Source: an uncultured Ectothiorhodospiraceae bacterium (GTDB lineage Bacteria; Pseudomonadota; Gammaproteobacteria; JAABTG01). From it: a stretch of DNA of 61,678 bases. The notes under the pieces are model-generated. The model worked only from the letters and a program-made list of their open reading frames with translations, searched no databases and was not told the origin of the DNA. How positions within the stretch are numbered: position 1 is the first letter of the stretch; each line of letters opens with the position of its first letter. Position numbers and translations under genes: made by a program. This document shows positions 1 to 27,942 of the stretch, piece after piece. Location of the stretch: contig CALMKJ010000031.1 in NCBI GenBank assembly GCA_937867305.1, positions 1-61,678 of the forward strand, in the 5' to 3' direction.

Positions 1-59
1 GGCAGGAGCGGTTCCTGGAGCGCGTGAAGAGCGGGGGGATCGAGCGGGTGCTGCTGTAG
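1..59 (+). CDS. 3' end of an unidentified gene (partial)
   Basis: An open frame enters from the left edge and ends at a TAG at 57-59. Read from base 3 it gives an 18-residue tail, QERFLERVKSGGIERVLL. This is too short to assign to a family. It is followed by a strong GC hairpin at 76-103, consistent with the end of a transcription unit. The high GC third positions fit a real coding end, but identity cannot be judged from the window. Confidence 0.5.
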   Translation, partial: QERFLERVKSGGIERVLL

Positions 60-75
60 CGGTAGCCGGGGAAGG

Positions 76-103
76 GCGCCCGGGGGCGGTGTGCCCCGGG
101 CGC
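76..103 (+). terminator. terminator-like GC hairpin
   Basis: A perfect 10-bp inverted repeat, GCGCCCGGGG and CCCCGGGCGC, with an 8-base loop, lies 17 bases after the stop of the partial gene. There is no T run on either side, so if it terminates it is not a classical intrinsic site. It also sits just past the point where the decayed GDSL gene on the other strand loses recognisable similarity. Confidence 0.45.
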
Positions 104-119
104 GAATGTGCCGTTCAGG

Positions 120-830
120 GCCTGCGCCGACCGCCTGGTTGAATGCGCCCGTCGCGACGGCCGCGCCCGCCACGGCGGCATCCCCGAACGACCGGATCCG
201 CGGGGTCAGCCCGAGATTCACCATGTTGGGGACCAGGATACTGGTGGCGCCCAGGTCGGCGAGCGTGGTCACAGCCATGCCGATGTTCTGGACTGCAGAC
301 TGGATCACCTGCGGGACCTCGTTGGGGTCGGCGACGCCCATGAAGTCGTTGGGCCCCGCCCAAACCACCTAGAGGGCGCTCGGGTCGACCCCGGCCCCGC
401 CCGGCAGCAGGAACTGAAGGGCGGGGTCGCTACTCCAGTTGCCCTGCAGGGTGGTGACTGCGCTCTGGTAGCGTGTGACCTGGTCGAGCAACCCGGGGAA
501 CGCCGTGGTGCCGTAGCTCCACGAGTTGTCGGTCCCGGTGTGGGCGCCGGCGAAGGCGTCATCGAAGAAGTGGGTGCCCGTGCTCCCGCCCCGAATCAGG
601 AGGTCGGCCATGCGTTCGACGGCGACAGGACCGTTCGACGCCCTTCCCTCGTAGTACCCGTAGGCGGGCGGCATCAGCAGGCTGCCCGTCGCCCTGTAGA
701 GATTGCTGTTGTCGGAAAGGCTGTCGCCGAAGACGTACACACCGCTGAAGGCGGCGCTCGCGGTAGTGCTCGCGCAGGCGAGCGCGACGCCGACCGCGAG
801 GCCGGCGAGGTGCTAACGCTCGCTCTTCAT
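120..830 (-). pseudogene. decayed GDSL/SGNH esterase with two in-frame TAG codons
   Basis: Starting at the ATG at 828-830 the frame reads a signal peptide (LAGLAVGVALACASTTASA) and then VYVFGDSLSDNSN, which is block I of GDSL lipases/esterases with the nucleophile Ser. It continues in frame through WAGPNDF, the block III Asn region. Two amber codons interrupt it. One is codon 6 (813-815), just inside the signal peptide. The other is at 369-371, where relatives normally have Tyr in an LYVVWAG-like strand. Similarity fades near base 120, before the C-terminal Asp-x-x-His block, so the catalytic triad is incomplete. The family normally runs to about 300-350 residues and is secreted. Two stops plus a missing end make a pseudogene far more likely than recoding. 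Confidence 0.85.
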
Positions 831-976: not shown

Positions 977-1246
977 ATGTCCAACCTGACCCTCCGGGGA
1001 CTCGACGAAGAGACCTCAGCCCGCCTGAAACAATTGGCGCAGTCCCGGGGTGTGAGCGTCAACCGCTATGCCCTGGAGTTGCTGCGCGGGGGGCTCGGCC
1101 TGGTGCCGAGAACCCGGGGCGAGCGGTACCACGACCTGGACCATCTGGCTGGGACCTGGTCCGAGACGGACGCCCGGGAGTTTGCCGACGCCCTCGCTGC
1201 CCTGCCGGCAGCCGCCCCGAAGACTTCCTTCCCTGAGCGGCGCTGA
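977..1246 (+). CDS. orphan ribbon-helix-helix (FitA/VapB-like) antitoxin
   Basis: 89 residues. The N-terminus SNLTLRGLDEETSARLKQLA followed by RGVSVNRYALELL is the classic ribbon-helix-helix DNA-binding fold of FitA/StbC-type antitoxins. The C-terminal tail (HDLDHLAGTWSETDAREF) resembles the toxin-binding arm of VapB proteins, including the W-x-x-x-D/E-x-x-x-F pattern. Family members normally precede a PIN-domain VapC ribonuclease that overlaps their stop. Here the next gene, ppnP, ends only 5 bases away on the opposite strand and no PIN ORF is present on either side. The start is the first ATG of the frame; the ribosome site is weak. It may be a relic or a stand-alone repressor. Confidence 0.8.
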   Translation: MSNLTLRGLDEETSARLKQLAQSRGVSVNRYALELLRGGLGLVPRTRGERYHDLDHLAGTWSETDAREFADALAALPAAAPKTSFPERR

Positions 1247-1251
1247 GCGTC

Positions 1252-1575
1252 TCACTCCGCCGGCAGGAAGTGGCAGACGTAGTGATAGGGTGTGCCGGTC
1301 ACCTCGATGTCGAAGCGGGTGTCGGCGGGGACGCGGAAGGACTCGCCCGCCCCGTAGGTACGCCACTCGCTCTCGCCCTCGATCCGCACGCGGCACTCAC
1401 CCGCCACGGTCTCCATGAGCTCCGGCACCCCGGTGCGAAAGGTAACCATGGACGGCAAGATGACCCCCACCGATTTCCTCGTGCCGTCGGGGAGCTCGAG
1501 GGTGTGCGAGACGCACTTGCCGTCGAAGTAGACGTTCGCCTTGGGCAGGACGGTGACGTTGTCGAGCGTGGACAT
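1252..1575 (-). CDS. ppnP: pyrimidine/purine nucleoside phosphorylase (DUF1255 cupin)
   Basis: 107 residues against a family size of about 95-105. It is a small all-beta cupin recognised by [28 protein letters not shown], continuing as [20 protein letters not shown] and ending in YHYVCHF. The family phosphorolyses a broad range of nucleosides to free base and ribose-1-phosphate in the cytoplasm. I chose the ATG at 1573-1575, giving MSTLDNV, because it matches the family start. The frame stays open further upstream but that part looks non-coding. The gene is monocistronic, with the antitoxin converging on it and the McrB-like gene divergent upstream. Confidence 0.92.
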
Positions 1576-1740
1576 GGGGTGACCCCGGGGTGGCAGTGGG
1601 AGGCCCCGATTGTAGGTGAGATCGGCTGGTGGCGCCGCGCCGGCAGGCGCCCTGGCACCGTGGACTCCCCAGCCATGGGCCGGGGCCGGTACGATGTGAC
1701 CGATAACCACCGCTCAGAGACACACCACCAGGAGCCTGCA

Positions 1741-3201
1741 ATGAGCGCGACGAACGAGTTGATCGACGGCATGGCCCAAGGGCGGGAGTGGATCGCGATG
1801 GGCGACAGTGAGTCCGTGCGGACGCTGCTCGGCCGTGTCTATGACGAGCGCTATCACAGCGCCGCACATCACAAGGACCGCTTCCAACTCCGCGTGAACC
1901 TGCAGAAGAAGGACGACGCCGCGTCCTACGCCGGCTGGATCACCGCCGAGAACCCGATGTCCGGACCCTACCAGGGCACCTCGTTCGTCTGGTTCCCTGG
2001 CATGCGAGGGAGCGTCGCCGTGCTGGTGATCGGTACCGATGGATTCGGCGCGGACACGGCCATTTTGGGCAGGCCGGGGCACGCGCGTCGGCTTCGGGCT
2101 CTCTCCCGACTTCATCGGGGGAAGGTGTGGGTCAAGCCGGACCTCCTCGACGTCAGCACTGTGGTCCCGAATGTCGTGGCCGAGCAGTGGCCGGACATCT
2201 CGGCTGCGCTCAAGTCCTACTCGCGTGTGATCTACGCGGCGGTTTCGGTCCGCAGCGACGATGACGGCCGCGCGGTCGAGGACTTGCTCGATCTGTTCTT
2301 CCATGAGCATGCCACGCCGCTCACCGGCAATCCGAGGAAGCATTGGGAGCGTCGCCTCGAGGAGATTGCCGGCGCGGTTTTCCCGGCCGTGACTCTCGAC
2401 GAGGTGCTAGCCATTCTGCGCGAGCGGCGCTTCGTGGTGCTTGAAGGTCCGCCCGGAACCGGCAAGACTCGCCTGGCCTATCAGCTTGCCGACCGAGTCG
2501 GTTCGGCCACGCACGTTCAGTTCCATGCCGCGCGAACGTACGAGGATTTCGTCGTCGGGCTCTTCCCGCGTCCTACCGGCCAGGGTCTCGCCTTCGACGT
2601 CCGGCCTGGCGACCTGCTTGTCGCCAACGCCGCGGCTTGGGAGCGAGAGCACGTGCTGGTCATCGACGAGATCAACCGCGCGGATCTCGCCCGCGTGCTC
2701 GGCGAAGCGGTCGTGCTGTTCGAGGTCGGGGAGTCCAATCGCAGGGTTCGGCTACCGCACGCGCCGGCGGGCCAGGACCACGAGCTGAGGCTCTCTCCCA
2801 AGCTACTCGTGCTCGGCACGCGCAATACCGCGGACCGGACCATCGCTCGCATGGACATCGCCATCCGGCGGCGCTTCGCGTTCGTCGAGATGTGGCCCGA
2901 TCTGCAGGCCGTCGAGCAGGGTGGAGTCGATCTCGCCACGGACACCTTCGCGGACGCCATTCATACCTTCGTCGAGTTCGCCGACGAGGATACGCTGCGC
3001 CTCGTCCCTGGCCATGCCTATTTCCTCGACCCGCGCCCCGACCTCGATGTTGCCGGGCGGGCTGACCGGGTGGCGCGGCGCATGCGGTTCGAGCTCTTGC
3101 CCCTGCTGCGGCACTACCTGGACGAGAAGCTCTGTGGTCCGGCCAGCGAGGCGGTCGCCGGCCTCGCGGACCGCATCGAGTCAAGGTTGATGGACCGCTG
3201 A
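1741..3201 (+). CDS. McrB-like AAA+ ATPase with novel N-terminal domain
   Basis: 486 residues. The C-terminal half is an McrB-type AAA+ motor. It has Walker A GPPGTGKT (236-243), Walker B VLVIDE (305-310) followed by the McrB hallmark NRAD (312-315), sensor-1 GTRNTAD (359-365) and an arginine-finger region IRRRF (375-379). In McrBC the motor uses GTP to translocate DNA and drive cleavage by McrC. The first 200 or so residues, with segments such as FVWFPGMRGSVAVLVIGTD (82-100), presumably recognise the target; I do not recognise the domain. The ATG at 1741 follows AGGAG six bases upstream. The stop overlaps the next start (TGATG), so the two genes are translationally coupled. The DNA is visibly less GC-rich than its flanks, suggesting acquisition. 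Confidence 0.85.
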   Translation: MSATNELIDGMAQGREWIAMGDSESVRTLLGRVYDERYHSAAHHKDRFQLRVNLQKKDDAASYAGWITAENPMSGPYQGTSFVWFPGMRGSVAVLVIGTDGFGADTAILGRPGHARRLRALSRLHRGKVWVKPDLLDVSTVVPNVVAEQWPDISAALKSYSRVIYAAVSVRSDDDGRAVEDLLDLFFHEHATPLTGNPRKHWERRLEEIAGAVFPAVTLDEVLAILRERRFVVLEGPPGTGKTRLAYQLADRVGSATHVQFHAARTYEDFVVGLFPRPTGQGLAFDVRPGDLLVANAAAWEREHVLVIDEINRADLARVLGEAVVLFEVGESNRRVRLPHAPAGQDHELRLSPKLLVLGTRNTADRTIARMDIAIRRRFAFVEMWPDLQAVEQGGVDLATDTFADAIHTFVEFADEDTLRLVPGHAYFLDPRPDLDVAGRADRVARRMRFELLPLLRHYLDEKLCGPASEAVAGLADRIESRLMDR

Positions 3202-4601
3202 TGGCTCGCGGTCAGACCAGGAAGGGGCGATCGCGCGCTGCCCTGATGGCGGCGGTGTCGTCGTCTCGTCCGCTGCTCAAGGCGCACGATCACGGGGAGC
3301 CTATCTCCATCCACGCGCAGCACATCGGCGTTTCTGGAGACCGGTGGGTCGAGCCTTTTCTCGCCGCGAACGCGGCGGGGCTGCGGCGCCTTGGTCTCCA
3401 CCATGAGATCCGCGTGGATCCCGTGCTACGGGTGATGCTGAAGCCAGGCCCTCGCATTGGCGCCGTTCCGCTGCTCAGCCCTGGCACGCGGAAAGTCGCT
3501 GCGGGGCTCCTGATCGAGCCGCGTTTCCGCTGGGCTGCGCTCGGAGCCGTGTTCAACGCGATCGGGTTCTCCGTCGAGCCCAGCCTTGGCGGGGCTCAGC
3601 CCGTACCCGGGTCGGCGCGTGAGGTGCCGCCGTGGATGCTCGCTGGCCCCGTCATCGAGCGGATCGCGGCCTTGCTGCGGCACCGCCGGCGAGGATTCGT
3701 CGAACGCGAGGAGACCCGTACGAGCCCACGCGGGCGCGTCGACTGGACGACATGGGCGACGGCACAGGTCCCACGCGGAGCTTGGGCCACGTTCCCCTGC
3801 TGCTTCTCCGAACCCGATGACGATCCAGATCTGTTCGCCTCCGTGCGATGGACGCTCTCGCGCCTTACAGAGGATCTCTCGTCGGTGGCCTGGTCCCCCG
3901 CTGCGAGGTACTTGCTCGGACGCGCGGCCGAGCTTCGGTCCGTCGTGGGAAATGGCGCCCTGCGGCGTCCGTCTTCGAGTTGGAGCCAGGCTGGTGCTTC
4001 CGCGTGGGTGAGCGAAGCCTTGGAGGCCATGACGTGGGTCGCCGAGGAGCGCGGTCTCGGAGGAGCGCGCAGCCTCGACGGTCTAGCCTGGGACCTGTCG
4101 ATAGATGCCGTGTGGGAGGCTTGGATCGTCGCCTTCACCGCAGACCTCGGACGGCAGCTCGGCATGACGGCGAGCCCCTTCCAGGCGTCGCGAAGACCGC
4201 TGCGCTGGCACGGACCAGCGCAGTCGATGGGCGCGCTCGTTCCGGATGTTGAGCTCCGCGGCGCCGAACGCGTCGTCTGGGTGGATGCCAAGTACAAGGC
4301 GCATCTCGAGCTTCTCTCCCGGCGAGGATGGAGCGGCCTTTCGGACGAGGTGCGCGCCGACCACCGTGCCGACCTGCATCAGGCGCTGGCCTACGCCTCG
4401 CTCGCGGACGCGCCGCAGGTTGACACCCTGCTGGTGTACCCGGACGTTGGCGCGGAGGACCGCTTTCCGGCGACGGTCGCCACGGTGACCTCGGGGAGAC
4501 GTCGCGTGCGCCTCGTGCTCGCGGCCGTGCCGTTCGGCTATCGCAACCCCGAGCACAAGGAACGATGTCTGCGCTCGTTCCGTGAGGTTCTGGCTGCTTG
4601 A
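3201..4601 (+). CDS. McrC-like PD-(D/E)xK endonuclease subunit
   Basis: 466 residues, starting within the stop codon of the McrB-like ATPase gene. The C-terminal third has the ordered nuclease signature: Glu in VWEAW (around 306), Asp in LVPDVELRG (349), and the D-x-K core in WVDAKYKAH (Asp362, Lys364). This is the layout of McrC and related Type IV restriction nucleases. The N-terminal 300 residues carry no motif I can name; in McrC this part docks on the ATPase ring and stimulates hydrolysis. Together the pair looks like a modification-dependent restriction or broader anti-phage module. The longer N-terminus and weak resemblance to canonical McrC leave open a distinct subtype. Confidence 0.8.
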   Translation: MARGQTRKGRSRAALMAAVSSSRPLLKAHDHGEPISIHAQHIGVSGDRWVEPFLAANAAGLRRLGLHHEIRVDPVLRVMLKPGPRIGAVPLLSPGTRKVAAGLLIEPRFRWAALGAVFNAIGFSVEPSLGGAQPVPGSAREVPPWMLAGPVIERIAALLRHRRRGFVEREETRTSPRGRVDWTTWATAQVPRGAWATFPCCFSEPDDDPDLFASVRWTLSRLTEDLSSVAWSPAARYLLGRAAELRSVVGNGALRRPSSSWSQAGASAWVSEALEAMTWVAEERGLGGARSLDGLAWDLSIDAVWEAWIVAFTADLGRQLGMTASPFQASRRPLRWHGPAQSMGALVPDVELRGAERVVWVDAKYKAHLELLSRRGWSGLSDEVRADHRADLHQALAYASLADAPQVDTLLVYPDVGAEDRFPATVATVTSGRRRVRLVLAAVPFGYRNPEHKERCLRSFREVLAA

Positions 4602-4624
4602 TGCTGACTTGAGCAGGGTGACCG

Positions 4625-5581
4625 TCAGCGCGGGAGTCGCCGGCGATAGAAGCGCAGGCCGTCGCGCTCCAGGACCTCGAGGGCGCCCTCGGCGAGGAGG
4701 GTCTCCACCAGGCCCCAGTCGGAGTGGTCCTCGGCGAGCAGGCGGCGCACGGCCACCTCGCGCATGGGGTGCACGGCGGTGATGGCGAGCAGGTCGGAGC
4801 GGGCGTCGCCACTGTGGGCGAAGTCCTGGGTCTCGTGCCCTGCGAGCACCTCGGCCCGCGGCAGGCGCTCCAGGAAGATGGCCCGTGCCCGCGCGAGGGC
4901 GGCCGCGTCCGCGCCCCGGACCGCGGACGCCGCGGTGGGGCGCACCGGCACGGCGAGGTACGCGGTGTGCGGGTGGATCTCGGCCAGGAAATCGGCGGTC
5001 GCGGTGACCCGACCCTCGTCGTCGTTGACCCCCGCGATCAGCATCGTGTCCGAGTAGAGCTTGCCGTGGAACGTGCGGGCGAAGTCCCGGATGCCCTGGA
5101 GGATGACGGGCAGGGACAGCGCGCCGTGGGGCCGGTCGACCCGCCGCCAGGCACCCTCGTCTACCGTGTCCACCTTGACCGAGACCAGGTCCGCTTCGGC
5201 GAGGCGGGCGCGGACCTCCTCCCGCCAGAGCAGGGTGGCGTTGGTGATCACCGCGATCGGGATGCCGAGGGGGCGCAGCGCCCGGATGCTCTCCCCGAGA
5301 CGGCTGTCCAGGGTGGGCTCGCCGTCCGGGACGAAGCTCAGGTAGTCGACGTGCCCGCCGCTCTCACGGACCTTCCGGAGGTGCTCGGAGACGGCCCGCA
5401 GGATCTCCTCGGGCGGGAAGAACTCCCGGGGCTCGACGCTGCGGTGGGTGGTCGGCCCCACCTGGCAGTACCGGCAGGCGTAGCTGCAGGTCTTGGCCGG
5501 GATGTGGTTGATGCCGAGGCTCTGCCCCAGGCGTCGGGAGGGGATGGGGCCGAAGGCGATGTGGTGCTCCTGGTTGTCCAT
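4625..5581 (-). CDS. radical SAM protein (COG0731-like)
   Basis: 318 residues. The cluster-binding motif CSYACRYC (CX3CX2C) lies near residue 32 after FGPIPSRRLGQSLGI, an opening typical of the COG0731 group of Fe-S oxidoreductases. Further SAM-fold landmarks are FVPDGEPTLD and the ITNATLL strand. The family cleaves S-adenosylmethionine to a 5'-deoxyadenosyl radical; the substrate here is unknown. The C-terminal 70 residues (from HSGDAR) look like a small winged-helix-type extension. It is the last gene of a minus-strand run and follows the DUF72 gene by about 30 bases. Confidence 0.85.
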   Translation of the reverse strand: MDNQEHHIAFGPIPSRRLGQSLGINHIPAKTCSYACRYCQVGPTTHRSVEPREFFPPEEILRAVSEHLRKVRESGGHVDYLSFVPDGEPTLDSRLGESIRALRPLGIPIAVITNATLLWREEVRARLAEADLVSVKVDTVDEGAWRRVDRPHGALSLPVILQGIRDFARTFHGKLYSDTMLIAGVNDDEGRVTATADFLAEIHPHTAYLAVPVRPTAASAVRGADAAALARARAIFLERLPRAEVLAGHETQDFAHSGDARSDLLAITAVHPMREVAVRRLLAEDHSDWGLVETLLAEGALEVLERDGLRFYRRRLPR

Positions 5582-8383: not shown

Positions 8384-8494
8384 GGTAGTTGACCTGCGGG
8401 GGTCCGGATGCCTGGGCCCATTGTAGTGCAACTCCCACCGCGCCGGCCGCGTGAGCGGGACGCCGGCGGCCACCGCGCGGGCGCGCGCGGAGCC

Positions 8495-10324
8495 TCAGGC
8501 GAGGCTCGCCTCGAAGTCGTACTCGAGCCCCGGGCGGGGCTCCTGGATGTAGTCGCCCTGGGCGTAGTCGACTCCGCAGTGCCACAGGACCGCCAGGCCG
8601 CTCGCCTCCTCGATGCCGCTGGCGATCGTGACCCGCTCCAGGCGGCGGGCGTTGTCCTGGAAGGCGCGCAGGGCCACGCGGCGCTGCTCGTTGCGGGCCA
8701 GACCCTCGACGAAACCGCTGCCGAGACGCACGTAGCGGGCGTCCACGTGGTGCACGAGGCTCAGGCCCGAGGTCCGCGGCCCCGCGTCGTCGGCGATGGC
8801 CGCGGCGCAGCCCAGGCGCTGGAGAGCGCTGACGAAGGCCTGGGCGAAGCGGACCTGGCGGCGCGCGGCGGCCTCCCGCACCTCGAAGACGAACTGGCCC
8901 CCGTCCAGCTGGGTGCGCTGCAGCATGCGGCTGAGGTGCAGGGGCACCGCCTCGCTCTCGATGGCCGAGTCCGAGAGGCGGATCAGCAGGGTCGGCTCGA
9001 TGCCGGCGGCGCGCTGGGCCTGGGCCTCGGCGAGCGCCCGCTCCACCACCCAGAAATCGAGCTTCATGGCGAGCTCGCCGTCGGAGCCCATGCATTCGAA
9101 TGCGTCCAGGGGGAACGGGTTGCCCTGGCGGTCCAGCATGCGCAGCTGGGTCTGGTAAAACGGCTTCGGCCGGCCGTGCAGCGGGATCAGGGGTTGATAC
9201 CACAGGGCCAGACGGTCGTCGCCGAGCGCGCTCCAGACGACGTCCGGGGCCACGGTCCGGCGCAGGCTGCCCACTCCGTCGCCGGCGCTGGCCTCGAAGC
9301 GCCGGACCTGGTTGCCCCCCGCCAGGATGGCGCGCCGGCAGGCCTGATCGGCCCGGCTCAGGACGACCCGGAGGTCAGAGACGCCGGGGGTGACCGCCGC
9401 GATGCCGAGGCTCGCGGTGGTCGCGAAGAACTGGCCTCCGACCTCGGTCACCGTCGCCTTGATCGCGCCCCGGACGCGCTCCGCCCCCTGTTCCACCCTC
9501 GCCGCGTCCTCGTCCGGGGTGAGGATCGCGAAACTGTGGTCGCCGAAGCGCGCGAAAAGGCGCCCCGGGGGGACCTCCCGCCGCACCACCTCGGCCAGCT
9601 CCGCCATGATCGCGTCACAGGTCGTGATGCCCCCGGATTGCCGCAGGGCGCGGAAGTTCTCGAGCTCCACCAGCACCAGGTGGCCGCCGGTGCGCTCCCT
9701 CGGCGGGCGGTCGAGGTAGCGGGTGAGGGCCTCGAGGAAATAACCCCGGTCGGGAAGGCCCGTCAGGTAGTCGCGCCCGGCTTCCCCGGAGCCGGGCAGC
9801 TCGGCCCAGCCGTTCCCTTCAGCGGAGCCGCCCTCCGCTCCGGCAAGCCGGTGGGGCGCCTCGGTGCCGGCGGGGCCACCTCGCGGGGGCCGGTCGGAAC
9901 GCAGCCCGTGGAGTCGCTCGAGGCGCCGCAGGCGCCGGCGGTCTTCGAGGGAGGCCACCTCCCGGCGCACCACGGCGAGGAGGTGGTCGCGGTTCGTGGG
10001 GTCGACGACGTCCCGTGCCCCCAGGGCGAGCAGGGCGACGCCCTCCCCCTCGCGCCGGGCGGGCGCCACCCCCACCAGGGGGAGGTCCCGGTGGGTGGTG
10101 CGCAGCACGGTGAGCGCGCGCGGGATACCGAAGCCGGGGACGCGCTGGGTCGCGAGGACCAGGTCCCAGGGGCGTTCGCGCAGCGCCTCGGCAAGGGCCG
10201 CCGGATTGTCGACCACCGCTCCCGAAATGGCGTACCCCCCCTGGCGCAGGACCGCCAGCAGCTCGTCGGCGCCGGAGTCCGAGCGGTCGATGACGACGAC
10301 GTGCAATCGCTGGCGGGGGTCCAT
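8495..10324 (-). CDS. FimX-like REC / degenerate GGDEF / degenerate EAL protein
   Basis: 609 residues from the ATG at 10322-10324. Residues 5-125 resemble a receiver fold (LHVVVIDRSDSGADELL). About 195-345 is a GGDEF domain whose signature has decayed to ARFGDHSFAIL. About 360-605 is an EAL domain beginning YQPLIPLHG, where the EAL motif is replaced by QTQLRML and the DDFGTG loop by IADDAGP. The end, QGDYIQEP, is the FimX-type terminus. The catalytic residues are missing, so it probably binds cyclic-di-GMP rather than making or degrading it. FimX homologues act at the cell pole in type IV pilus assembly. No pilus genes are nearby. Confidence 0.85.
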   Translation of the reverse strand: MDPRQRLHVVVIDRSDSGADELLAVLRQGGYAISGAVVDNPAALAEALRERPWDLVLATQRVPGFGIPRALTVLRTTHRDLPLVGVAPARREGEGVALLALGARDVVDPTNRDHLLAVVRREVASLEDRRRLRRLERLHGLRSDRPPRGGPAGTEAPHRLAGAEGGSAEGNGWAELPGSGEAGRDYLTGLPDRGYFLEALTRYLDRPPRERTGGHLVLVELENFRALRQSGGITTCDAIMAELAEVVRREVPPGRLFARFGDHSFAILTPDEDAARVEQGAERVRGAIKATVTEVGGQFFATTASLGIAAVTPGVSDLRVVLSRADQACRRAILAGGNQVRRFEASAGDGVGSLRRTVAPDVVWSALGDDRLALWYQPLIPLHGRPKPFYQTQLRMLDRQGNPFPLDAFECMGSDGELAMKLDFWVVERALAEAQAQRAAGIEPTLLIRLSDSAIESEAVPLHLSRMLQRTQLDGGQFVFEVREAAARRQVRFAQAFVSALQRLGCAAAIADDAGPRTSGLSLVHHVDARYVRLGSGFVEGLARNEQRRVALRAFQDNARRLERVTIASGIEEASGLAVLWHCGVDYAQGDYIQEPRPGLEYDFEASLA

Positions 10325-14859: not shown

Positions 14860-16059
14860 TCACACCTGGCCTTCGACCTCCTGCCGATAGTAGTCCATGA
14901 GGATCTGCGCCACCTCCGGGCGCGAGAACTCCCGCGGCGGGGCGACGCCCCGGGAGAGCATCTCGCGCACCTTCGTCCCGGAGAGCAGCACGAAGTCGTC
15001 CGGCGTGTGATCCGGGGCGTCGCGCATCATCACCACCCGGTTCAGCTTCTTCGACCAGGCGGTGTGGTCCGCCTTGAAGATCTCGATCTCCAGCGCCCCC
15101 TTCGGCACCTCCTCGTCGAAAATCCTCTGGGCGTCGAAGGCGCCGTAGTAGTCGCCCACGCCCGCGTGGTCACGGCCCACGATGAAGTGCGTCGCGCCCA
15201 TGTTCTGGCGGAACACCGCGTGCAGCACCGCCTCGCGCGGGCCCGCGTACAGCATGTCGAAGCCGTAGCCGGTCACCATCGCGGTGTTCGGCGGGAAGTA
15301 GAGCTCGACCATCTTGCGGATGGCGGCGTCGCGCACCGGCGCGGGGATGTCGCCTGCCTTCAGGCGCCCGAGCAGCATGTGGATCACCACGCCGTCGGCC
15401 CCCACCGCCCGCATGCCCATCTTGCAGAGCTCCTCGTGGGCGAGGTGCATGGGGTTGCGGGTCTGGAAGGCGATCACGCGGCGCCAGCCGCGCTCGGCGA
15501 TCTCGTTGCGGATCTCGACCGCGGTGCGGAAGGTGTCCGGGAATTCGCTCTGGAAGTAGCTGAAGCCGAGCACCTGGATCGGCCCCGAGACGCAGTACCG
15601 GCCGAGCGAGCGGAAGGTCGCCACGCCGGCGTGGGCGGGGTCGAGCGTGCGAAACACCTTTTCCACGATGAAGTCGAGCTCGGGCTCCGCGAGCTCCTCC
15701 ACGTCCTGCACGTCCATGACCGCGAGGACGGGGTGGCCTGCGAGGTTCGGGTCGCGCAGGGCGATGCGCCTCGCGCCTTTCACACTCGCCAGGTCCCGGG
15801 TCAGGTTCAGCACCGGCACCGGCCAGAAGAGCCCGTCCGTGGTGCGCATCCGCTCGGCGACGGAGAGCGCGTCGGCCGCGCTCATGTAGCCGGTCAGGGG
15901 GTTGAAGTAGCCCGTGCCCAGCATCACGGCGTTCGCGGCGGCGGCCGAATTCAGGAGCAGGGACGGCAGGCCCTCGGCCTCCTGCAGCAGCTCCCGGTGG
16001 CGCACCGGGTCGTACACGAAGAGGGGGTTCAGCGTCTCGGAGCCGTGGGGCTTGATCAT
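14860..16059 (-). CDS. sat: sulfate adenylyltransferase, dissimilatory homo-oligomeric type
   Basis: 399 residues. FQTRNPMHLAHEEL carries the RNPxHxxH nucleotide-binding motif and GRDHAGVGDYYGAFDAQ the second conserved loop. The length and N-terminus (a PUA-like domain, then the catalytic domain, with no APS-kinase extension) match the Sat of sulfur oxidisers and sulfate reducers rather than CysDN. In sulfur oxidisers it runs toward ATP formation: APS plus PPi gives ATP plus sulfate. APS reductase genes (aprBA) are not in the window. The ATG follows AGGAGAG at good spacing. ubiX is the next gene on the strand. Confidence 0.95.
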   Translation of the reverse strand: MIKPHGSETLNPLFVYDPVRHRELLQEAEGLPSLLLNSAAAANAVMLGTGYFNPLTGYMSAADALSVAERMRTTDGLFWPVPVLNLTRDLASVKGARRIALRDPNLAGHPVLAVMDVQDVEELAEPELDFIVEKVFRTLDPAHAGVATFRSLGRYCVSGPIQVLGFSYFQSEFPDTFRTAVEIRNEIAERGWRRVIAFQTRNPMHLAHEELCKMGMRAVGADGVVIHMLLGRLKAGDIPAPVRDAAIRKMVELYFPPNTAMVTGYGFDMLYAGPREAVLHAVFRQNMGATHFIVGRDHAGVGDYYGAFDAQRIFDEEVPKGALEIEIFKADHTAWSKKLNRVVMMRDAPDHTPDDFVLLSGTKVREMLSRGVAPPREFSRPEVAQILMDYYRQEVEGQV

Positions 16060-16281
16060 CGTGGGCGTGCTCTCCTGAACGGGCGGGTCCCCGGGGGCGC
16101 CCCCGGCGGCGCGGCGACCCGGAAGGGGCAGCGCGCGAGGCGGGGCCGGCGCGCGGGAAGGCGGTATTCTGACCGGTCACCGGGGGGAAACGCACCCGTC
16201 CTGCCGGTACTGGCCCAGGCCACCGGTCCCCCTACCTCCCGGGGAGCGCGCGCGCTAGCCTTGGGGAGGAGGAGCGAAGGG

Positions 16282-16392
16282 ATGCCCGCAAACCTGACCC
16301 CCGAGTACAAAACGGCCGAGGCCGCCTGCCCCCGGCACGTGGGCCGGGCGCACCCGGTTGCGGGCGGCGACGTGATCGAGCCGCACGCGTGA
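16282..16392 (+). CDS. 36-residue ORF resembling the start of a TGS-domain GTPase
   Basis: A GGAGGAGGAG ribosome site lies seven bases before ATG at 16282. The ORF reads MPANLTPEYKTAEAA and ends at TGA 16390-16392, overlapping the GTG of the EAL gene (GTGA). The opening residues match the conserved N-terminus of Obg-family GTPases of the COG1163/TGS type (MPANLTPEY-like), but the rest (CPRHVGRAHPVAGGDVIEPHA) does not. It is either a fragment of such a gene or a short leader ORF whose translation is coupled to the EAL gene. The 222 bases upstream, back to sat, hold GC-rich inverted stretches but no gene I can support. Confidence 0.45.
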   Translation: MPANLTPEYKTAEAACPRHVGRAHPVAGGDVIEPHA

Positions 16393-18008
16393 GCGCGCCC
16401 CCGAACGGCAAGGGGCCGCGCCGCCACTGGGCCCCCCTCGGCACGCCGGAGGGCAACGGGGTCCTCACCGGCCTCGGCACCGCCCTTGCCGGTGTCGTCC
16501 CCCTGCTCGCGCTCCTCGCGCTCGCCTACCTCTCGGCCCGGGACCAGGTGGCGCGCGAGACGGACATCGCCGTCCGGCTCGCCGTGCGCAACGCCGAGCA
16601 CGTCTTCGACTGGGCGCTGGCCGACCTGAACCGGGTCACGCCGCTCGTCGACGCCCCCTGCTCGCCGCAGACGGTCGAGCGCCTGCGCCGCGTGGTCCTC
16701 GAGTCCGCGGCGGCGCGGGAGGTGGGTCTGTTCCGCGCCGACCTGCAGGTCTACTGCACGAGCCGGGGACCGGCAGGCGTGTACCCCCCGGCGGCGGACC
16801 GGGCCCGTTTCCCTGCCGAAGGCACCTTCGTGGGCTTCTACGAGTCCGAGCTCGTCGACGACCCCGCAGTGGTCGTTCACCGCCGTGTCGCGGGGGGTGC
16901 CGGGGCCGGCGTTCTGGTGTCTCCCTCGGAGTTCCGCAACGACGTCCTCGCCGAGGTGCTCGGCCTCCAGGGTGGCTTCCGGATGGAGGTGACGGACGGG
17001 CCCGTCGTGGCCGAAAACCCCGGCATGGTGCCCGCCGGGACCCGGGGGTACCTCTTCGCCGCCGCGGACTCCACCCGGCATCGGGTCCGGGTCGAGGCCG
17101 CCCGCCCCGACTCCGACGTGCTGGACGCATTTCTCGAGCGCCTCCCGCGGTTCGGGTGGGTGGGGGTGGCCCTGGGCACGCTGGCCGCCGTGGCCTTCTC
17201 CCGCGCCATGCGCCGGCGGCTCTCGCTCGAGACGGAGTTGCGCACGGCGCTGCGCCGGGGGGAGCTCGAGGTCCACTACCAGCCGCTCGTGGACCTCGCC
17301 GCGGGGCGCTGCGCCGGGGCCGAGGCGCTGGTGCGCTGGCGCCACCCCCAGCGGGGGCTGGTGCACCCGGCCCTCTTCATCGCGATGGCGGAGGAGACGG
17401 GGCTCGTCATGCCCATGACGGACTGGATGCTGAGGCGCGTGCGCGACGACGTCCTGCAGTGGTTTCGCGCGCTGCCCGACTTCCACGTTGCGGTCAACCT
17501 GGCGGCCCAGCACTTCGCCGACGAGGCCATCGTCGAGGAGGTCCGGTCGGTCCTGCAGGGGTCCGGGCTCGAGCCCTCGGTGCTGATGCTGGAGGCGACC
17601 GAGCGTCAGCTGATCGAGGGCGGGGAGGGCGCCGCGCGGCGGGTGATGGAGTCCCTGCGCGCGCTCGGTTGCTCCCTCGCCGTGGACGACTTCGGTACCG
17701 GCCAGAGCAGCCTCTCCTACCTCCAGCGCTTCCCGATGGACTACCTGAAGGTCGACAAGAGCTTCGTCGACACCATCGGCACCGACTCGGTGAGCCGCCC
17801 GGTCCTGGACGCGATCATCGACCTCGGCCGCCGGCTCGGTCTCACCGTGATCGCCGAGGGGGTCGAACACCCCCACCAGGTCGAGTACCTGCGGCGGCGG
17901 GGTGTGCAGCTGGCGCAGGGGTTCCTGTTCTCGCCGCCCCTGCCGGCGGCCGAGCTGGCGGACTACATGGCGGCCTGCGACGCCGCCGCGTGGGTCGCGA
18001 AGCGGTGA
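16389..18008 (+). CDS. CSS-motif EAL cyclic-di-GMP phosphodiesterase
   Basis: 539 residues. A membrane segment lies at about 29-50, then a periplasmic domain with Cys91 (APCSPQ) and Cys123 (VYCTSRG; CTS in place of the usual CSS), a second membrane segment near 250-268, and a C-terminal EAL domain. The EAL domain looks catalytically complete: EALVRWRH, NLAAQHF, LEATERQ, DDFGTG, KVDKSFVD, AEGVEH and the terminal QGFLFSPPL. CSS-motif enzymes respond to periplasmic redox or disulfide status, with the two cysteines forming a bridge. It starts at a GTG overlapping the 36-residue ORF. It hydrolyses cyclic-di-GMP at the inner membrane. Confidence 0.9.
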   Translation: MSAPPNGKGPRRHWAPLGTPEGNGVLTGLGTALAGVVPLLALLALAYLSARDQVARETDIAVRLAVRNAEHVFDWALADLNRVTPLVDAPCSPQTVERLRRVVLESAAAREVGLFRADLQVYCTSRGPAGVYPPAADRARFPAEGTFVGFYESELVDDPAVVVHRRVAGGAGAGVLVSPSEFRNDVLAEVLGLQGGFRMEVTDGPVVAENPGMVPAGTRGYLFAAADSTRHRVRVEAARPDSDVLDAFLERLPRFGWVGVALGTLAAVAFSRAMRRRLSLETELRTALRRGELEVHYQPLVDLAAGRCAGAEALVRWRHPQRGLVHPALFIAMAEETGLVMPMTDWMLRRVRDDVLQWFRALPDFHVAVNLAAQHFADEAIVEEVRSVLQGSGLEPSVLMLEATERQLIEGGEGAARRVMESLRALGCSLAVDDFGTGQSSLSYLQRFPMDYLKVDKSFVDTIGTDSVSRPVLDAIIDLGRRLGLTVIAEGVEHPHQVEYLRRRGVQLAQGFLFSPPLPAAELADYMAACDAAAWVAKR

Positions 18009-18072
18009 CCGGGCCTTCCGGACCCAGTGGACCCATGACCCTCGTGCCTGCGCCCTGCCAGGGGTGCGCCCC

Positions 18073-19308
18073 GTGAGCTTTCCCGTCCTGGTGCTGCTCG
18101 CGGTCTTCGCCGCCATCGCCTTCCGCCGGGTGGGGCGCCTGCGCATCCGGATCTGGCAGGCCATGGGGGCTGGCGCACTCGCGGTGCTCCTGAGCGGGCA
18201 CATCTCCCCGGCGCAAGCGCTGCGGTCCATCGACCCGGACGTCATGCTGTTCCTGTTCGGGATGTTCGTGGTGGGCGAGGCCCTGGTGGCGAGCGGGTAC
18301 CTCTACACCCTCGCGTGTCACACCCTGGGCCGGGCCCGGAGCGCCGACTCCCTGGTGCTCGCGGTGCTGTTCGGCGTCGGCCTGGCGTCCGCCCTGCTGA
18401 TGAACGACACCCTCGCGATCGTGGGGACGCCGCTCATGCTGCGGCTCGCCGGGAGGCACCGGATCGACGGCCGCGTGCTGCTGCTGACCCTGTCTTTCGC
18501 CGTCACCACGGGCAGCGTGATGAGCCCGATCGGCAACCCCCAGAATCTCCTGATCGCCATCGGCGGGGGCATGGCCAGTCCCTTCGTCACCTTCCTGCGC
18601 CACCTCTTCCTCCCCACCGTGCTGAGCCTCCTCGCGGCCTATGCGGTGCTGCGGGTGGCCTACCGGCGGGAATTCCACGGGGGCGTGCTGGAGCACGCCG
18701 AGGCCGGCCCCGGTGACCCGGCGCTCGCCCGGCTGGCGCGCCTGGCGCTGGTGGTCGTGGTCCTGATGGTGGTCGCGAAGGTCGCCCTGGTCTGGACTGG
18801 CGCGCCCTTCGAGATGCGCCTGTCCTGGATCGCCCTCGCGGGGGCCCTGCCCGTGCTCCTCGCGAGCCCGCGGCGCGGGGCGATCCTGCGGCGCCTGGAC
18901 TGGCCGACGTTGCTGTTCTTCGCCGCGATGTTCGTGCTGACGGCCAGCGTCTGGCAGACCGGCTTCTTCCAGGACGCCCTCGCGCGCCTCGGCCTCGACC
19001 TGACCGGCACGGGTGCGACCCTGGGTGTGGGGGTGCTGCTGAGCCAGCTCGTCTCCAACGTCCCGCTGGTCGCCCTGTACCTGCCCCTCCTGCAACACGC
19101 GGGGGTCTCCGAGGCGGGGCTGCTCGCGCTGGCCGCGGGGAGCACGCTGGCGGGCAACCTGCTCATCCTGGGCGCGGCAAGCAACGTCATCATCGTCGAG
19201 GCCGCCGACCGGCGCGGGACCCACGTGAGCTTCGCGGAGTTCGCCCGCGTGGGCATCCCGCTCACCCTGCTGCAGGTCGCCATCTTCGGGGTGTTCCTCG
19301 GTGCATAG
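18073..19308 (+). CDS. SLC13/ArsB-superfamily anion permease
   Basis: 411 residues from a GTG at 18073, almost entirely hydrophobic with about 10-11 membrane segments. Superfamily landmarks are DPDVMLFLFGMFVVGEAL, LLMNDTLAIVGTPLML and, in the second half, QLVSNVPLVALYLPLL and GSTLAGNLLILGAASNVI, the duplicated substrate-binding hairpins of DASS/ArsB carriers. Candidates for substrate are dicarboxylates, sulfate or arsenite; sequence alone cannot decide. The 3' end overlaps the histidine-kinase start by eight bases, which ties transport to the two-component system that follows. Confidence 0.82.
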   Translation: MSFPVLVLLAVFAAIAFRRVGRLRIRIWQAMGAGALAVLLSGHISPAQALRSIDPDVMLFLFGMFVVGEALVASGYLYTLACHTLGRARSADSLVLAVLFGVGLASALLMNDTLAIVGTPLMLRLAGRHRIDGRVLLLTLSFAVTTGSVMSPIGNPQNLLIAIGGGMASPFVTFLRHLFLPTVLSLLAAYAVLRVAYRREFHGGVLEHAEAGPGDPALARLARLALVVVVLMVVAKVALVWTGAPFEMRLSWIALAGALPVLLASPRRGAILRRLDWPTLLFFAAMFVLTASVWQTGFFQDALARLGLDLTGTGATLGVGVLLSQLVSNVPLVALYLPLLQHAGVSEAGLLALAAGSTLAGNLLILGAASNVIIVEAADRRGTHVSFAEFARVGIPLTLLQVAIFGVFLGA

Positions 19309-21145
19309 GCGCGCGACCGACCCCGGTTCCGGCACCGGCGCGCGGGTCCGCCCGCTCCCCGTGCTCTCCGTCGCCGTGCCCCTCGGCCTCGCCCTCTGCC
19401 TCCTGCTCGCCCTGCCGTTCCTGCTGCACTATCACCTCGAGGAGACGCGGGCGCGCCAGCACGCGCTCGACAGCGAGAACCGGGTCCTCGAGCTCGCCCA
19501 GCAGGCCGCGGTGCAGGAGGTGGCCAGCGTGCTGTCCGACCTGCGCTTCCTGCACGAGCAGAACGAGATGCGGGACCTGCTGCGCGGGGACGCCCCGGGG
19601 GCGCGGGAGAGGCTCGCCGCCGAGTACCTCACGTTCGTCAGTCAGAAGCCGCGCTACGAGCAGGCCGCGGTCATCGGGGCGGACGGTGGGGAGGTGGTGC
19701 GGGTCGACGGCAACGACGGCCGGCCGACCGTGGCCGGCGCGCCGGCGCTGCAGTGGAAAGGGGACTGCGCGCACTTCCAGGAGACGATGCGCCTCGGACG
19801 CGGCGAGGTCCACCTGTCGCCCCTCGACCTGATCCTGCAGGGCGGGGCTGTGCAGATGCCCCTGAAACCCGTGCTTCGGGCCTCCGTCGCGCTGTTCGGC
19901 GCGGGCGGGGAGCGCCGGGGCGTGCTCACGCTCAGCTACCATGGGCGGCGCCTGCTCACTCGCCTGCGCGCGTACGCGCAGGGGGGGGCGAGCCAGCTGT
20001 GGCTGCTGAACGAGCAGGGCTACTGGCTCGCCGGCCCCGACCCCGCGCTCGAGTGGGGGTTCGCGTTCCCGGAGCGTTCAGACCGCACGCTGGCGGCCCG
20101 GGAGCCCGAGGCCTGGGAGCGCATCCGCGCGGAGGTGGCCGGCACCGTCGACACCGCGGACGGTCTCCTCACCTTCCGCAGGGTCTACCCACTCGCCGGG
20201 GACGCGTCCGCCTCGGACGCGCCGGCGATGGCCTCGCCCCACCGCTACTCCTGGACCCTCGCAACCCTGCTACCCCACGCCGCGCTCTCCAAGCGCATGG
20301 CCGGGCTCGCGGGCACGTTGCTGGCGGTCTACGGAGTCACGGCCCCCCTGCTGTTCGGCGGGACACTCTGGCTCACCTATCGTTCCGCGCGGGGGCGGGC
20401 CCGGCTGCGGGAGGCCCAGCGCCGGGAGCGGGAGCGGATGCTGGAGCTCGCCCACGCCAACCGGCTCGCGAGCGTCGGGGAGATGGCGACCCAGATGGCC
20501 CACCAGGTCAACCAGCCCCTGACCGCCATCGTCACGTACTGCGCGGCGGCGCAGCGCAGCCTGCAGTCCGGGGCCGGGGACCTCTCGCGTGTGCGCGAGT
20601 GGGTTGACGCCATCGGGGAGGAGGCCCAGCGCGTCAGCGCCATCGTGCGCGGGCTGAGGGAATTCGTGCGCCGGGGAAAGATGGCCCCCGTCCCGCTGGA
20701 CCTCGGGGAGGTCGTCGCGGGCGTGGTGGGGGCGCTGCGCCCCGACGCGGACCGCCGACGTGTGAAGCTCGGCGTCGAGACCCCCGCCGGCCTGCCGGCG
20801 GTGCTCGCCGACCGGGTCCTGGTCGCCCAGGCGCTCCTGAACCTCGTGCGCAACGCCATCGAGGCCGTCTCGGTCGAGCCCTCCGAGCGGCGCCGGGTCG
20901 TCGTCTCCCTCGCGCTCGAGGGCGACCGGGTCGTGGTGTCCGTCGCCGACACGGGGCCGGGCGTCGACCCCGGGCTCGCGGGGAGGCTCTTCGAGTCCTT
21001 CGTGACCACGAAGCCCGAGGGCCTCGGCATGGGGTTGTCCATCACGCGGTCGATCGTGGAGGCCCACGGGGGGCAGTTGCGCTACGACCCGGCCCCCTCG
21101 GGCGGGGCGGTGTTCTCTTTCAGCCTGCGGAGGTCAGCGCCATGA
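19301..21145 (+). CDS. DctB-like sensor histidine kinase
   Basis: 614 residues. Two membrane segments (about 20-45 and 330-355) flank a large periplasmic region that resembles a double-Cache ligand sensor (QAAVIGADGGEVVRVDGNDG). The phosphoacceptor region is SVGEMATQMAHQVNQPLTAI with the H-box His, followed by the N-box NLVRNAIEAV, G1 DTGPGVD, F-box SFVTTKPEGLG and G2 GMGLSITRSIV. This HK4 layout (HQxNQPL) is that of DctB/FixL kinases. It overlaps the permease gene upstream and the response regulator downstream (ATGA), so the three are one translational unit. It may sense the substrate carried by the permease. Confidence 0.9.
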   Translation: MHRRATDPGSGTGARVRPLPVLSVAVPLGLALCLLLALPFLLHYHLEETRARQHALDSENRVLELAQQAAVQEVASVLSDLRFLHEQNEMRDLLRGDAPGARERLAAEYLTFVSQKPRYEQAAVIGADGGEVVRVDGNDGRPTVAGAPALQWKGDCAHFQETMRLGRGEVHLSPLDLILQGGAVQMPLKPVLRASVALFGAGGERRGVLTLSYHGRRLLTRLRAYAQGGASQLWLLNEQGYWLAGPDPALEWGFAFPERSDRTLAAREPEAWERIRAEVAGTVDTADGLLTFRRVYPLAGDASASDAPAMASPHRYSWTLATLLPHAALSKRMAGLAGTLLAVYGVTAPLLFGGTLWLTYRSARGRARLREAQRRERERMLELAHANRLASVGEMATQMAHQVNQPLTAIVTYCAAAQRSLQSGAGDLSRVREWVDAIGEEAQRVSAIVRGLREFVRRGKMAPVPLDLGEVVAGVVGALRPDADRRRVKLGVETPAGLPAVLADRVLVAQALLNLVRNAIEAVSVEPSERRRVVVSLALEGDRVVVSVADTGPGVDPGLAGRLFESFVTTKPEGLGMGLSITRSIVEAHGGQLRYDPAPSGGAVFSFSLRRSAP

Positions 21146-21771
21146 GCGCGGGGGACGAGGTGCGGGTGTTCATCGTCGACGACGACGCGTCGGTGCGCCG
21201 CTCGCTGCGGGCGCTGCTCGGGGAGGTGGGAGTCCCGGCCGCCGACTTTCCCTCCGCCGAGGCACTCCTCGAGGTCGTCCACGAGGACACGCGCGGCTGC
21301 GTGCTGCTCGACGTGCGCATGCCCGGGATGAGCGGCCTGCAGCTGCAGGAGGTCCTGCGCGAGCGGGGCCTGAAGCTGCTGGTGATCGTCCTCACCGGGC
21401 ACGCCGACGTCCCCATGGCGGTGCGCGCGATGAAGGCGGGGGCGGTCGACTTCATCGAGAAGCCGTTCAACCCTCAGCTCTTGATCGAGCGGATCCAGGC
21501 CTGCCTCGACGCCGAGGCCCAGGCCCATGCCCGGGGGCAACGGCGCCGGGACGCGGAGGCGCTCCTGCGCTCGCTCTCCACGCGGGAGCGGGAGGTGCTC
21601 GAGCTGTTGGTCACCGGCAAGCCGAGCAAGGTGATTGCCTCCACGCTGGGGATCAGCGAGAAGACGGTGGACGTGCACCGTTCCCACCTCATGCGCAAGA
21701 CCGGCACGCGCTCGGTGGCCGAGCTCGTGCAGTTGTGGGTCGTGGCGTGGGGTAAGGAGCCGGGGTCCTAG
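21142..21771 (+). CDS. FixJ/TodT-type response regulator
   Basis: 209 residues. The receiver domain has the acidic pair in FIVDDDASVRRSL, the phosphorylated Asp in LLDVRMPGMSG, the Thr in VLTGHADVPMAV and Lys in FIEKPF. A LuxR/GerE helix-turn-helix follows (STREREVLELLVTGKPSKVI and ISEKTVDVHRSHLMRKTG). It is the cognate regulator of the sensor kinase with which it overlaps by four bases, and probably controls the upstream permease or other transport genes. A pair of strong hairpins follows. Confidence 0.93.
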   Translation: MSAGDEVRVFIVDDDASVRRSLRALLGEVGVPAADFPSAEALLEVVHEDTRGCVLLDVRMPGMSGLQLQEVLRERGLKLLVIVLTGHADVPMAVRAMKAGAVDFIEKPFNPQLLIERIQACLDAEAQAHARGQRRRDAEALLRSLSTREREVLELLVTGKPSKVIASTLGISEKTVDVHRSHLMRKTGTRSVAELVQLWVVAWGKEPGS

Positions 21772-21794
21772 GGGTGTCCCAGGAGCCCTGGAAC

Positions 21795-21862
21795 GCGCCA
21801 CCGGGCGAGCGCCCGGTGGCGCCGCCTGGGCCTGACCCCCGGCCGCGCGGTTCCGCGGCCGG
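21795..21862. terminator. two strong hairpins between convergent genes
   Basis: Perfect 11-bp stem GCGCCACCGGG / CCCGGTGGCGC (21795-21822, 6-base loop), then perfect 9-bp stem CCGGCCGCG / CGCGGCCGG (21839-21862, 6-base loop). They separate the response-regulator gene from the converging PilZ-like gene. Neither has a T run. Confidence 0.55.
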
Positions 21863-21876
21863 AGAGGGAACGGCGC

Positions 21877-22161
21877 TCAGATCTCGATGGACATCCCGAG
21901 ACCGTCGCTGTGCGTCACGGTCCCCTGGAACATCCGCGGCCGCGCTCCCTCGTACACGCCCATCAGGTCCTCGATGAGGAGCTCGGTGCCCACCGGAAAC
22001 GCGATCGGACCCTGGCGCAGGTCGATCACCTGCTCGCCGGCCTCGCGAATCCCGTACAGGCCGATGGGGTGACCCTGATAGCGCAGGTGCACGAGCGGAA
22101 GCCTCGCCCTCGCGCCGTGCGGTCCCCGCTCGTGCGTCGTCGTCGAGCGTGTGTCCATCAT
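21877..22161 (-). CDS. small PilZ-like protein
   Basis: 94 residues from the first of two adjacent ATGs (22159-22161), preceded by AAAGGAGG at nine bases; this strong site decides the start over a longer TTG frame. The segment VHLRYQGHPIGLYGIREAG, then FPVGTELLIEDL and MFQGTVTHSDGLGMSIEI, has the beta-barrel rhythm of PilZ domains. However, I do not see a clear RxxxR arginine pair or the D/N-x-S-x-x-G loop, so cyclic-di-GMP binding is doubtful. It may be a xPilZ-type adaptor. The neighbourhood, with an EAL gene 4 kb away, makes a cyclic-di-GMP link plausible only. Confidence 0.5.
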   Translation of the reverse strand: MMDTRSTTTHERGPHGARARLPLVHLRYQGHPIGLYGIREAGEQVIDLRQGPIAFPVGTELLIEDLMGVYEGARPRMFQGTVTHSDGLGMSIEI

Positions 22162-22374
22162 CGCCTGCGTCCTCCTTTTCAAGCCCCCCGTACTCCTTAT
22201 ACGGGACCCGGTGCTCTCCCGGAATCGGCGGTTTATCTATGGCAACTAAGGGATCCTTTAGATCCGAGCACCCCCGCATCCGGCGTGCACAGGTGGCCGG
22301 GCTAGGCTATAGAGAATAGTCGGGGCGGCGACGGGCGCGCTGCCACTTCCCACTTGACGGCAAGGAGCATCGAG

Positions 22375-23130
22375 ATGCGCATGCAGGCGAAACACCTTGG
22401 ACTCTTTGTCCTGACCTTCGCGGCGATACCCGTGTGGGCGCAGGGCGGACAGCCCTACCCGCAACCCGACCCGGCGGCCGGTTACGGCCAGGCCGCACCC
22501 TACGGTGCGCCGCCGGCCTATGGTCAGCCCCCGGCTTATGGTCAGCCTCCGGCTTATGGTCAGCCTCCGGCCTACGGTCAGCCCGGCGGGTATGCACCGC
22601 CCCAGGGTTACCCGCCGCCCGGTGCCGGTTACGGGCAGGCGCCTGCCTACGGTGGGAGCGGGCCCGCACCGCTCGCGCCGCGGCGCTACGTGCCGCTGCG
22701 TGAGCTGGACCCCTTCGTGAAGGATGCACCGCCTGCCGCGGGTGGTCCCGGTCAGCCCGCTGCGCCCGGCGCGCCCGGAGCCGCGGCCGGTCCGGGGGCG
22801 GCCCCGGGGGCGGCCCCCTCCGGGGCGCCTCCTGAGAAGAAGACGGGCCCCATGGACAAGATGATGGCCCCGATGGAGAAGATGACGCAGCCCATGCAGC
22901 GGATGACGCAGCCGATGGAAAAGATGATGGGGCCCATGGGGAGCATGTTCGGGGGCAAGGAAGAGCCGGCCGCCCCCGGAGGCTACGGGCCCGCGCCCTA
23001 CGGCGCCCCGGGCTACGGCGCCCCGGGCTACGGCGCCCCGGGTTACGGCGGTGGACCCGGCGTCGGTGGCGCGCCTTACGGTCAGCCCGCCGCCCCGGGC
23101 TACGGTCCGGGGGGGTACGGCGGACGTTGA
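22375..23130 (+). CDS. repeat-rich exported protein (PAYGQP, Met-rich, GYGAP segments)
   Basis: 251 residues from the ATG at 22375, which follows AAGGAG at eight bases. A signal peptide ([19 protein letters not shown]) is followed by a PAYGQP tandem array (residues about 47-70), a linker with [13 protein letters not shown], and a Pro/Ala/Gly stretch. A methionine-rich segment follows (about 159-185) in which MEKMTQP-like heptads recur: [28 protein letters not shown]. The C-terminus is a Gly-Tyr-Gly-Ala-Pro array. I recognise no family. Exported Met-rich proteins can bind copper or iron, and Gly/Tyr/Pro arrays occur in envelope proteins; both are inference. The downstream transglycosylase-like gene follows closely. 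Confidence 0.75.
22513..22584 (+). repeat. four 18-bp in-frame tandem repeats
   Basis: Four consecutive near-identical 18-bp units (consensus CCGGCTTATGGTCAGCCT) encode PAYGQP. The middle two are identical. Because the unit is a multiple of three, copy number can change without frameshift. A second in-frame array of 15-bp units (GGCTACGGCGCCCCG) lies at about 22996-23040. Confidence 0.9.
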
Positions 23131-23204
23131 TCCCCGACGGGGACCGGGCACGGTCGCCGGGGTCGGGTGAGGCATCCGGCCCCGGCGCGTGCACGCCGGG
23201 AGCG

Positions 23205-23828: not shown

Positions 23829-23961
23829 GGTCCCCCCCAGGACCCCCTGCAGGGCCCCTGCAAGGGACCGGAGCCTCCCCGCGCCTCACCGCGGCCCGGG
23901 CAAACGCCGGCCGCCGGGTATTGCCGGCGGCCGGGTGTGGCTCACCCGAGGCGATGGGGGC

Positions 23962-24480: not shown

Positions 24481-24584
24481 CGCTCCACCCTCCTGTCTCT
24501 GATCATATTCCGGTTAATCGTAGCAGCTGGTCTCCCGGAACTGCAGCGCCGCACGCGGGACCGGCGCCCGGGCGCTGTTCCCGC

Positions 24585-26344: not shown

Positions 26345-26514
26345 GGCCTGCTCTCCTCTTGTCGTCACGACCCTGACGTGGCTGCGCCCCTCGCGCTGCG
26401 CCGCCCGCGAGCGGGGGTTGCGTGGGGCGCGCTGCCCGCAGATCATCTTGAGTTTAGCCGTCAGTGTAGCCGCAGGCGGGGGACGCGTCCCGTCGCGACC
26501 CGAGGGACATCTGG

Positions 26515-27873: not shown

Positions 27874-27942
27874 GCGGCCGGTTCCGGCAGGGCCCCGGGG
27901 CTGTCGGCCTCCCCGGGGAAAGGGAGAGTGGGAGAGGGCCCC

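Follow-up and report, generated by a model that had tools for sequence, protein, structure and literature searches.

The stretch of DNA analysed here, 61,678 nucleotides in length and hereafter called the window, contains a two-gene pair that is a variant of the McrBC type, distinguished by an unannotated specificity domain at the N-terminus of its motor protein. With a probability of roughly 60%, we interpret this pair as a restriction module of the McrBC type that stands alone and was acquired horizontally, and by analogy with McrBC it probably destroys foreign DNA, most likely DNA that is chemically modified. An initial annotation of the window had proposed the pair as a "new anti-phage system". 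What holds of that proposal is that the N-terminal domain (N-domain) matches no described domain. The motor, its partner, the operon layout and the lack of a methyltransferase are all of McrBC type, and the exchange of N-terminal domains is how the McrBC family is known to diversify, so the pair is to be regarded as a variant rather than as a new kind of system, with a putative role against phages.

Both open reading frames of the pair are intact, and the overlap of stop and start codons from which the initial annotation deduced translational coupling is present (Table 1). Overlaps at the junction between the motor and nuclease genes also occur in two of the homologous loci described below (L032 and L035). 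Between the window pair and its two closest homologues the dN/dS ratio is 0.09-0.20, a sign of purifying selection that excludes a chance origin of the pair.

Table 1. Features of the two-gene pair and its surroundings, in window coordinates
Feature	Coordinates	Strand	Basis
GDSL lipase pseudogene, in-frame stop	3-740	-	Reading frame
FitA-like RHH antitoxin without toxin	977..1246	+	Pfam 2.4e-7
Left flank, pyrimidine/purine nucleoside phosphorylase (Ppnp)	1252..1575	-	Pfam 7e-33
Inserted segment between Ppnp and radical-SAM genes, absent from sister species	1637..4615 (limits approximate)	.	Synteny with G134/L013
Motor gene, McrB-like AAA+ (predicted GTPase), 486 aa	1741..3201	+	NCBIfam and PDB matches
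N-terminal putative specificity domain, residues 1-205, unannotated family	1741..2355	+	No Pfam match in 15 members; 26 invariant columns
LGRPGH, residues 109-114, most conserved motif of the N-domain; R111-P112-G113-H114 invariant in 15 sequences	2065..2082	+	Alignment A4
Walker A GPPGTGKT, residues 236-243, with Lys242	2446..2469	+	Sequence, alignment with McrB
Walker B / NRAD, VIDEINRAD, residues 307-315	2659..2685	+	Sequence, alignment with McrB
McrB sensor-I signature NTADR, residues 362-366, NxxD class	2824..2838	+	Sequence; class from PMC11090510
TGATG stop/start overlap (translational coupling)	3199..3203	+	Sequence
Nuclease gene, McrC-like, 466 aa	3201..4601	+	Pfam PF10117, hhalign to E. 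coli McrC
PD of PD-(D/E)xK, Pro348-Asp349	4242..4247	+	Invariant in 11 homologues
D-A-K of PD-(D/E)xK, Asp362-Lys364	4284..4292	+	Invariant in 11 homologues
Right flank, radical SAM protein	4625..5581	-	Pfam 2e-15; 94% identical in sister species

The McrB-type AAA+ region of the motor begins at about residue 206, and its core was recovered by three libraries. The motor matches the NCBIfam McrB model PRK11331 (E=5.9e-25), and its residues 204-388 match E. coli McrB (PDB 6ut6, E=3.5e-26). The NRAD motif that had been singled out as McrB-specific is present within the Walker B stretch, but the literature assigns that status to NTAD, which places the motor in the NxxD sensor-I class; all of the motor homologues that cover this position read NTAD, NSAD or NTSD. 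Lys242, named in the initial annotation as an ATPase residue, lies in Walker A and is better assigned a predicted role in GTP hydrolysis.

The adjacent gene encodes an McrC-type PD-(D/E)xK subunit, an assignment that rests on its catalytic core. The match to the Pfam McrBC family PF10117 lies under the Pfam cut-off both for the window protein (E=1e-3) and for its orthologue in L003 (E=6e-5), and an alignment of the nuclease family (A5) matches E. coli McrC over the catalytic core only (hhalign, E=8e-5). The catalytic residues are those that the initial annotation had taken as an intact core. Its description of the nuclease N-terminus as unfamiliar also holds, given that the first ~300 residues have no detectable sequence match, McrC included; an AlphaFold2 model of the protein is of low confidence (pLDDT 35).

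What is observed in this pair is its anatomy, and we infer each step of its action by analogy with McrBC. In this scheme the motor would form a hexameric ring that hydrolyses GTP, and the nuclease subunit would dock on the ring and stimulate the hydrolysis; foreign DNA would be recognised by the N-domain, in all likelihood through a modified base, and cut after translocation. The modified base is thus the presumed trigger of the system and DNA restriction its presumed activity.

Residues 1-205 of the motor, the putative DNA reader, matched no Pfam, PADLOC or NCBIfam domain and no solved structure, in keeping with the earlier remark that the first 200 residues were unrecognisable. A genome scan with the single sequence understated the family, as it returned only two near-identical relatives (85% and 87% identical), one from a Verrucomicrobia MAG (L002) and one from a Deltaproteobacteria MAG (L003) whose host is placed in the Myxococcota by our tree. 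This was corrected by a profile search, which brought the number of homologues to 14, mainly from Myxococcota. In these the domain is fused to the same type of motor, and where the locus is complete the same nuclease comes next. The profile, built from the window, L002 and L003 sequences, found the domain in 13 of 379 genomes of the Myxococcota (E<=2.4e-16). In the window's own phylum (398 genomes, single-sequence query) it was found in the window's genome only, and among 143 genomes of the L002 phylum only in the L002 host (G748). Viral contigs scanned with the motor, the N-domain and the nuclease yielded no relative, and tblastn of plasmids with N-domain queries, two distant members among them, gave no match. 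Across the 15 aligned N-domains there are 26 invariant columns, with the motifs SGxYxGxSxVxFP, VxGTxG and LGRPGH among them. The N-domain is the least conserved part of the motor, with 80% identity between the window and L003 as compared to 92% for the AAA+ part. Two incomplete loci were also encountered: a degenerate copy (L037:8839-10578) in which the N-domain, cut short after ~108 residues, is fused in frame to the nuclease, the AAA+ part being deleted, and a second, truncated motor that has no nuclease (L044:9576-10697) in a genome (G819) that also carries an intact pair (L042).

AlphaFold2 predicts a compact alpha/beta fold for the N-domain from a three-sequence alignment (mean pLDDT 69, pTM 0.75). 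As the initial annotation had recommended, the model was submitted to a fold search, in which Foldseek returned nothing from PDB or BFVD at E<=0.001. DUF1054, the most plausible of the PDB matches with a TM of 0.40, was set aside as insignificant. The N-domain profile likewise found no credible match among PDB sequences, ribosomal protein L20 (E=0.0024) being an unrelated helical match.

The initial annotation would have given way if the N-domain had proved to be a known McrB domain, e.g., DUF3578 (ADAM), with which McrB binds 5mC, and this question was pursued with an MrcB_N (DUF3578) alignment built from 16 sequences. Its profile recognises the N-terminal domain of E. coli McrB by hhalign with a score of 54.7 and a probability of 95.5%, and the comparison therefore has power. 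For the N-domain family, on the other hand, the score against the same profile was 13.8 as compared to a shuffle mean of 12.4, and 24 of 100 column shuffles did as well. It is unlikely in our estimation, though worth weighing seriously, that the pair is a canonical McrBC dependent on 5mC/5hmC, its N-domain being a DUF3578/ADAM domain that has diverged very far and carries an insertion. Structural elements are predicted in the order helices, four strands, helix, strand, helix, strand, helix, which parallels the order read by eye from MrcB_N sequences. In the best hhalign path YAGWI is aligned with the PWIAI strand, and GxSFVxFP with GiYvVYLF; since the strands are paired in the same order, a very distant common origin of the two domains is possible. 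Weak hints in the same direction come from the scores against E. coli McrB-N alone, reached by 1 of 100 shuffles, and against the combined profile, reached by 3 of 60. Set against these are the insignificant score with MrcB_N, the lack of any PF12102 match in the 15 family members, and the fold search, which placed no McrB N-domain among its best 50 rows. On these sequence and model comparisons, membership in DUF3578 is not demonstrated. A further suggestion, possible but doubtful, is that the N-domain has a novel fold for reading DNA, without relation to ADAM, EVE/YTH or B3. It would recognise a base modification or a DNA feature in phages of Myxococcota and other environmental bacteria, and the LGRPGH loop would form part of the binding site.

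Methyltransferases bear on the choice between a modification-dependent system and an LlaJI-like one, in which the motor would read an unmethylated site and the host would be protected by a methyltransferase whose gene lies elsewhere. Restriction of unmethylated DNA by an McrBC-like pair is documented for LlaJI (PMC1459862), and N4/N6-type (amino-) methyltransferases are encoded in 13 of the 14 family-bearing genomes, so that a distant protective enzyme is possible, albeit never one beside the pair. No methyltransferase gene was found to adjoin the pair in the window or in its homologues, save a truncated DruM in L002, which is also the sole C5 methyltransferase of that host. Neither the window's genome nor that of the L003 host gave a match to PF00145, the C5 methyltransferase family; the same search was positive in 10 of 14 control genomes. 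Where this enzyme does occur in Myxococcota, none of the matches lies on a contig bearing the pair. The module evidently needs no C5 partner gene, which argues against an LlaJI-like system and favors a modification-dependent (Type IV) one. In addition, the N-domain profile did not retrieve the B3 domain of LlaJI.R1 from the PDB, and naive hosts would presumably be harmed by a cassette that reached them from another phylum unaccompanied by its methyltransferase. For these reasons we judge an LlaJI-like mode of action quite improbable. We also considered depletion of C5 methyltransferases in the hosts as a sign of 5mC targeting, and rejected it: the enzyme is encoded in 6 of 13 family-bearing Myxococcota genomes (7 have none) and in 151 of 366 others. 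With no depletion, toxicity of 5mC-directed cutting to the host itself is unsupported.

The site of the pair is consistent with acquisition from elsewhere. In a sister species (G134/L013) the flanks are syntenic and 92-93% identical outside the inserted segment, which establishes that the pair is truly part of this chromosome. At the DNA level the window resembles L002 and L003 over the two genes only (1738-4608 and 1730-4604, respectively), and the unrelated flanks in the window genome, the myxobacterium and the Verrucomicrobiota MAG point to horizontal transfer. In the motor tree these three are joined with full support within a clade otherwise composed of sampled genomes of the L003 phylum. 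The initial annotation considered the pair to be clearly less GC-rich than its flanks. This is true of the downstream side and of the window overall (67.8% for the pair vs 72.1% for the rest, with 3% of equally long stretches lower), but not of the upstream flank, which is itself at 68.8%; the contrast lies mainly downstream and in third codon positions, where GC is 0.78-0.79 in the pair and mostly 0.9-0.98 in neighbouring genes. Low third-position GC in these genes is consistent with a recent arrival.

The pair does lie beside a pseudogene and an orphan antitoxin gene, as had been noted (GDSL lipase, 3-740, and FitA-like, 977-1246). The sister species encodes an intact PIN toxin of 141 aa exactly where the window misses ~408 bp, and it largely lacks the lipase region (window 3-740). 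Its slot matching that of the pair contains the remnant of an MTaX1-Vsr fusion (L013; G134 contig 9, reverse-complement 8449-9696), which in this one comparison suggests that the slot is a site collecting restriction-type genes. Elsewhere in the window (14860-31209) are genes that by eye resemble ATP sulfurylase and SoxY/SoxZ (28563-29368) and suggest a sulfur-oxidising host.

Homologues of the pair were surveyed for defence genes in their vicinity, and several reside beside restriction, abortive-infection, toxin-antitoxin or mobile-element genes, contrary to the prospect, raised initially, that they might never do so. Their neighbours include AbiEii, a serine recombinase and, directly 3' of the nuclease gene, a HIT/PLD helicase (L041); an integrase and VapE (L035); an HNH nuclease (L033); HigB (L044); PIN (L034); a RecG-C/Fic-like gene and a sub-threshold match to DUF2326 (L038); and the remains of a Druantia system (L002). 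Around L032, L039 and L042 there are mostly ordinary genes. As judged from these lists of neighbour genes, the defence association of the family is suggestive, not statistical. In L002 (2533-12290) the pair is situated between DruM, a C5 methyltransferase that has lost its C-terminal part, and the DruE helicase, followed by DruK. Druantia I and II have been described with inactivated McrB-like GTPases (PMC12458937). The state of DruM, together with the loss of the first ~490 residues of DruE, led us to reject a working Druantia-McrBC hybrid; a gene swap or an assembly-chimeric contig is possible.

McrBC systems differ from one another chiefly by their exchangeable N-terminal readers, and each reader that has been solved has brought a new target into view (5mC, 6mA or a specific site). 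The family described here is well bounded, with a sharp conserved signature, a concentration in Myxococcota and a compact two-gene cassette that crosses phyla, and the ligand of its N-domain may bring to light a modification of phage DNA that is as yet undescribed from Myxococcota hosts. A census of nearly 34,000 McrBC homologues has documented modular N-terminal specificity domains as well as branches that are DISARM-like, methyltransferase-associated, or of the NxD (CoCoNuT) type (PMC11090510). None of the characterised McrB readers, DUF3578, YTH and B3 (PMC7680126), was detected in the window's motor, and, as judged by sequence against the domain databases and these readers, we file the pair as McrBC-type with an unassigned reader.

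Among known systems, CoCoNuT resembles the window's pair in combining an McrB-like GTPase with an McrC-like partner, and for that branch action on RNA, DNA ends or an infection-specific structure has been proposed. The N-domain, having neither an assigned fold nor an assigned ligand, would accommodate such a target, and a stand-alone distribution is in itself no proof of modification dependence. The window's GTPase nevertheless carries NTAD, of the NxxD rather than the NxD class, its N-domain is modelled as compact, PD-DxK is intact in 11 of 11 aligned nucleases, and the accessory RNA-linked genes of CoCoNuT are not seen beside the pair; we regard a target of this sort as very improbable, and an McrBC-type restriction module as the preferred reading. 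LlaJI, a Type II restriction-modification system, shares the McrB-like motor and the PD-(D/E)xK partner, but has a B3-domain reader and adjacent C5 methyltransferases, whereas the window's pair has no match to B3 and no such adjacent genes. TgMcrB likewise joins an McrB core to an exchanged N-terminal reader, in its case a YTH/EVE-type reader of 6mA, to which the N-domain has no match by Pfam (in 15 members), PDB sequence profile or fold. The closest likeness in overall design is to the Type IV McrBC of E. coli K-12, with its two overlapping genes, NTAD-bearing AAA+ core of McrB, PD-DxK core of McrC and no dedicated methyltransferase; the window's pair departs from it in an N-domain that is not detectably DUF3578 and in a longer, unmatched N-terminal region of the nuclease (about 300 aa).
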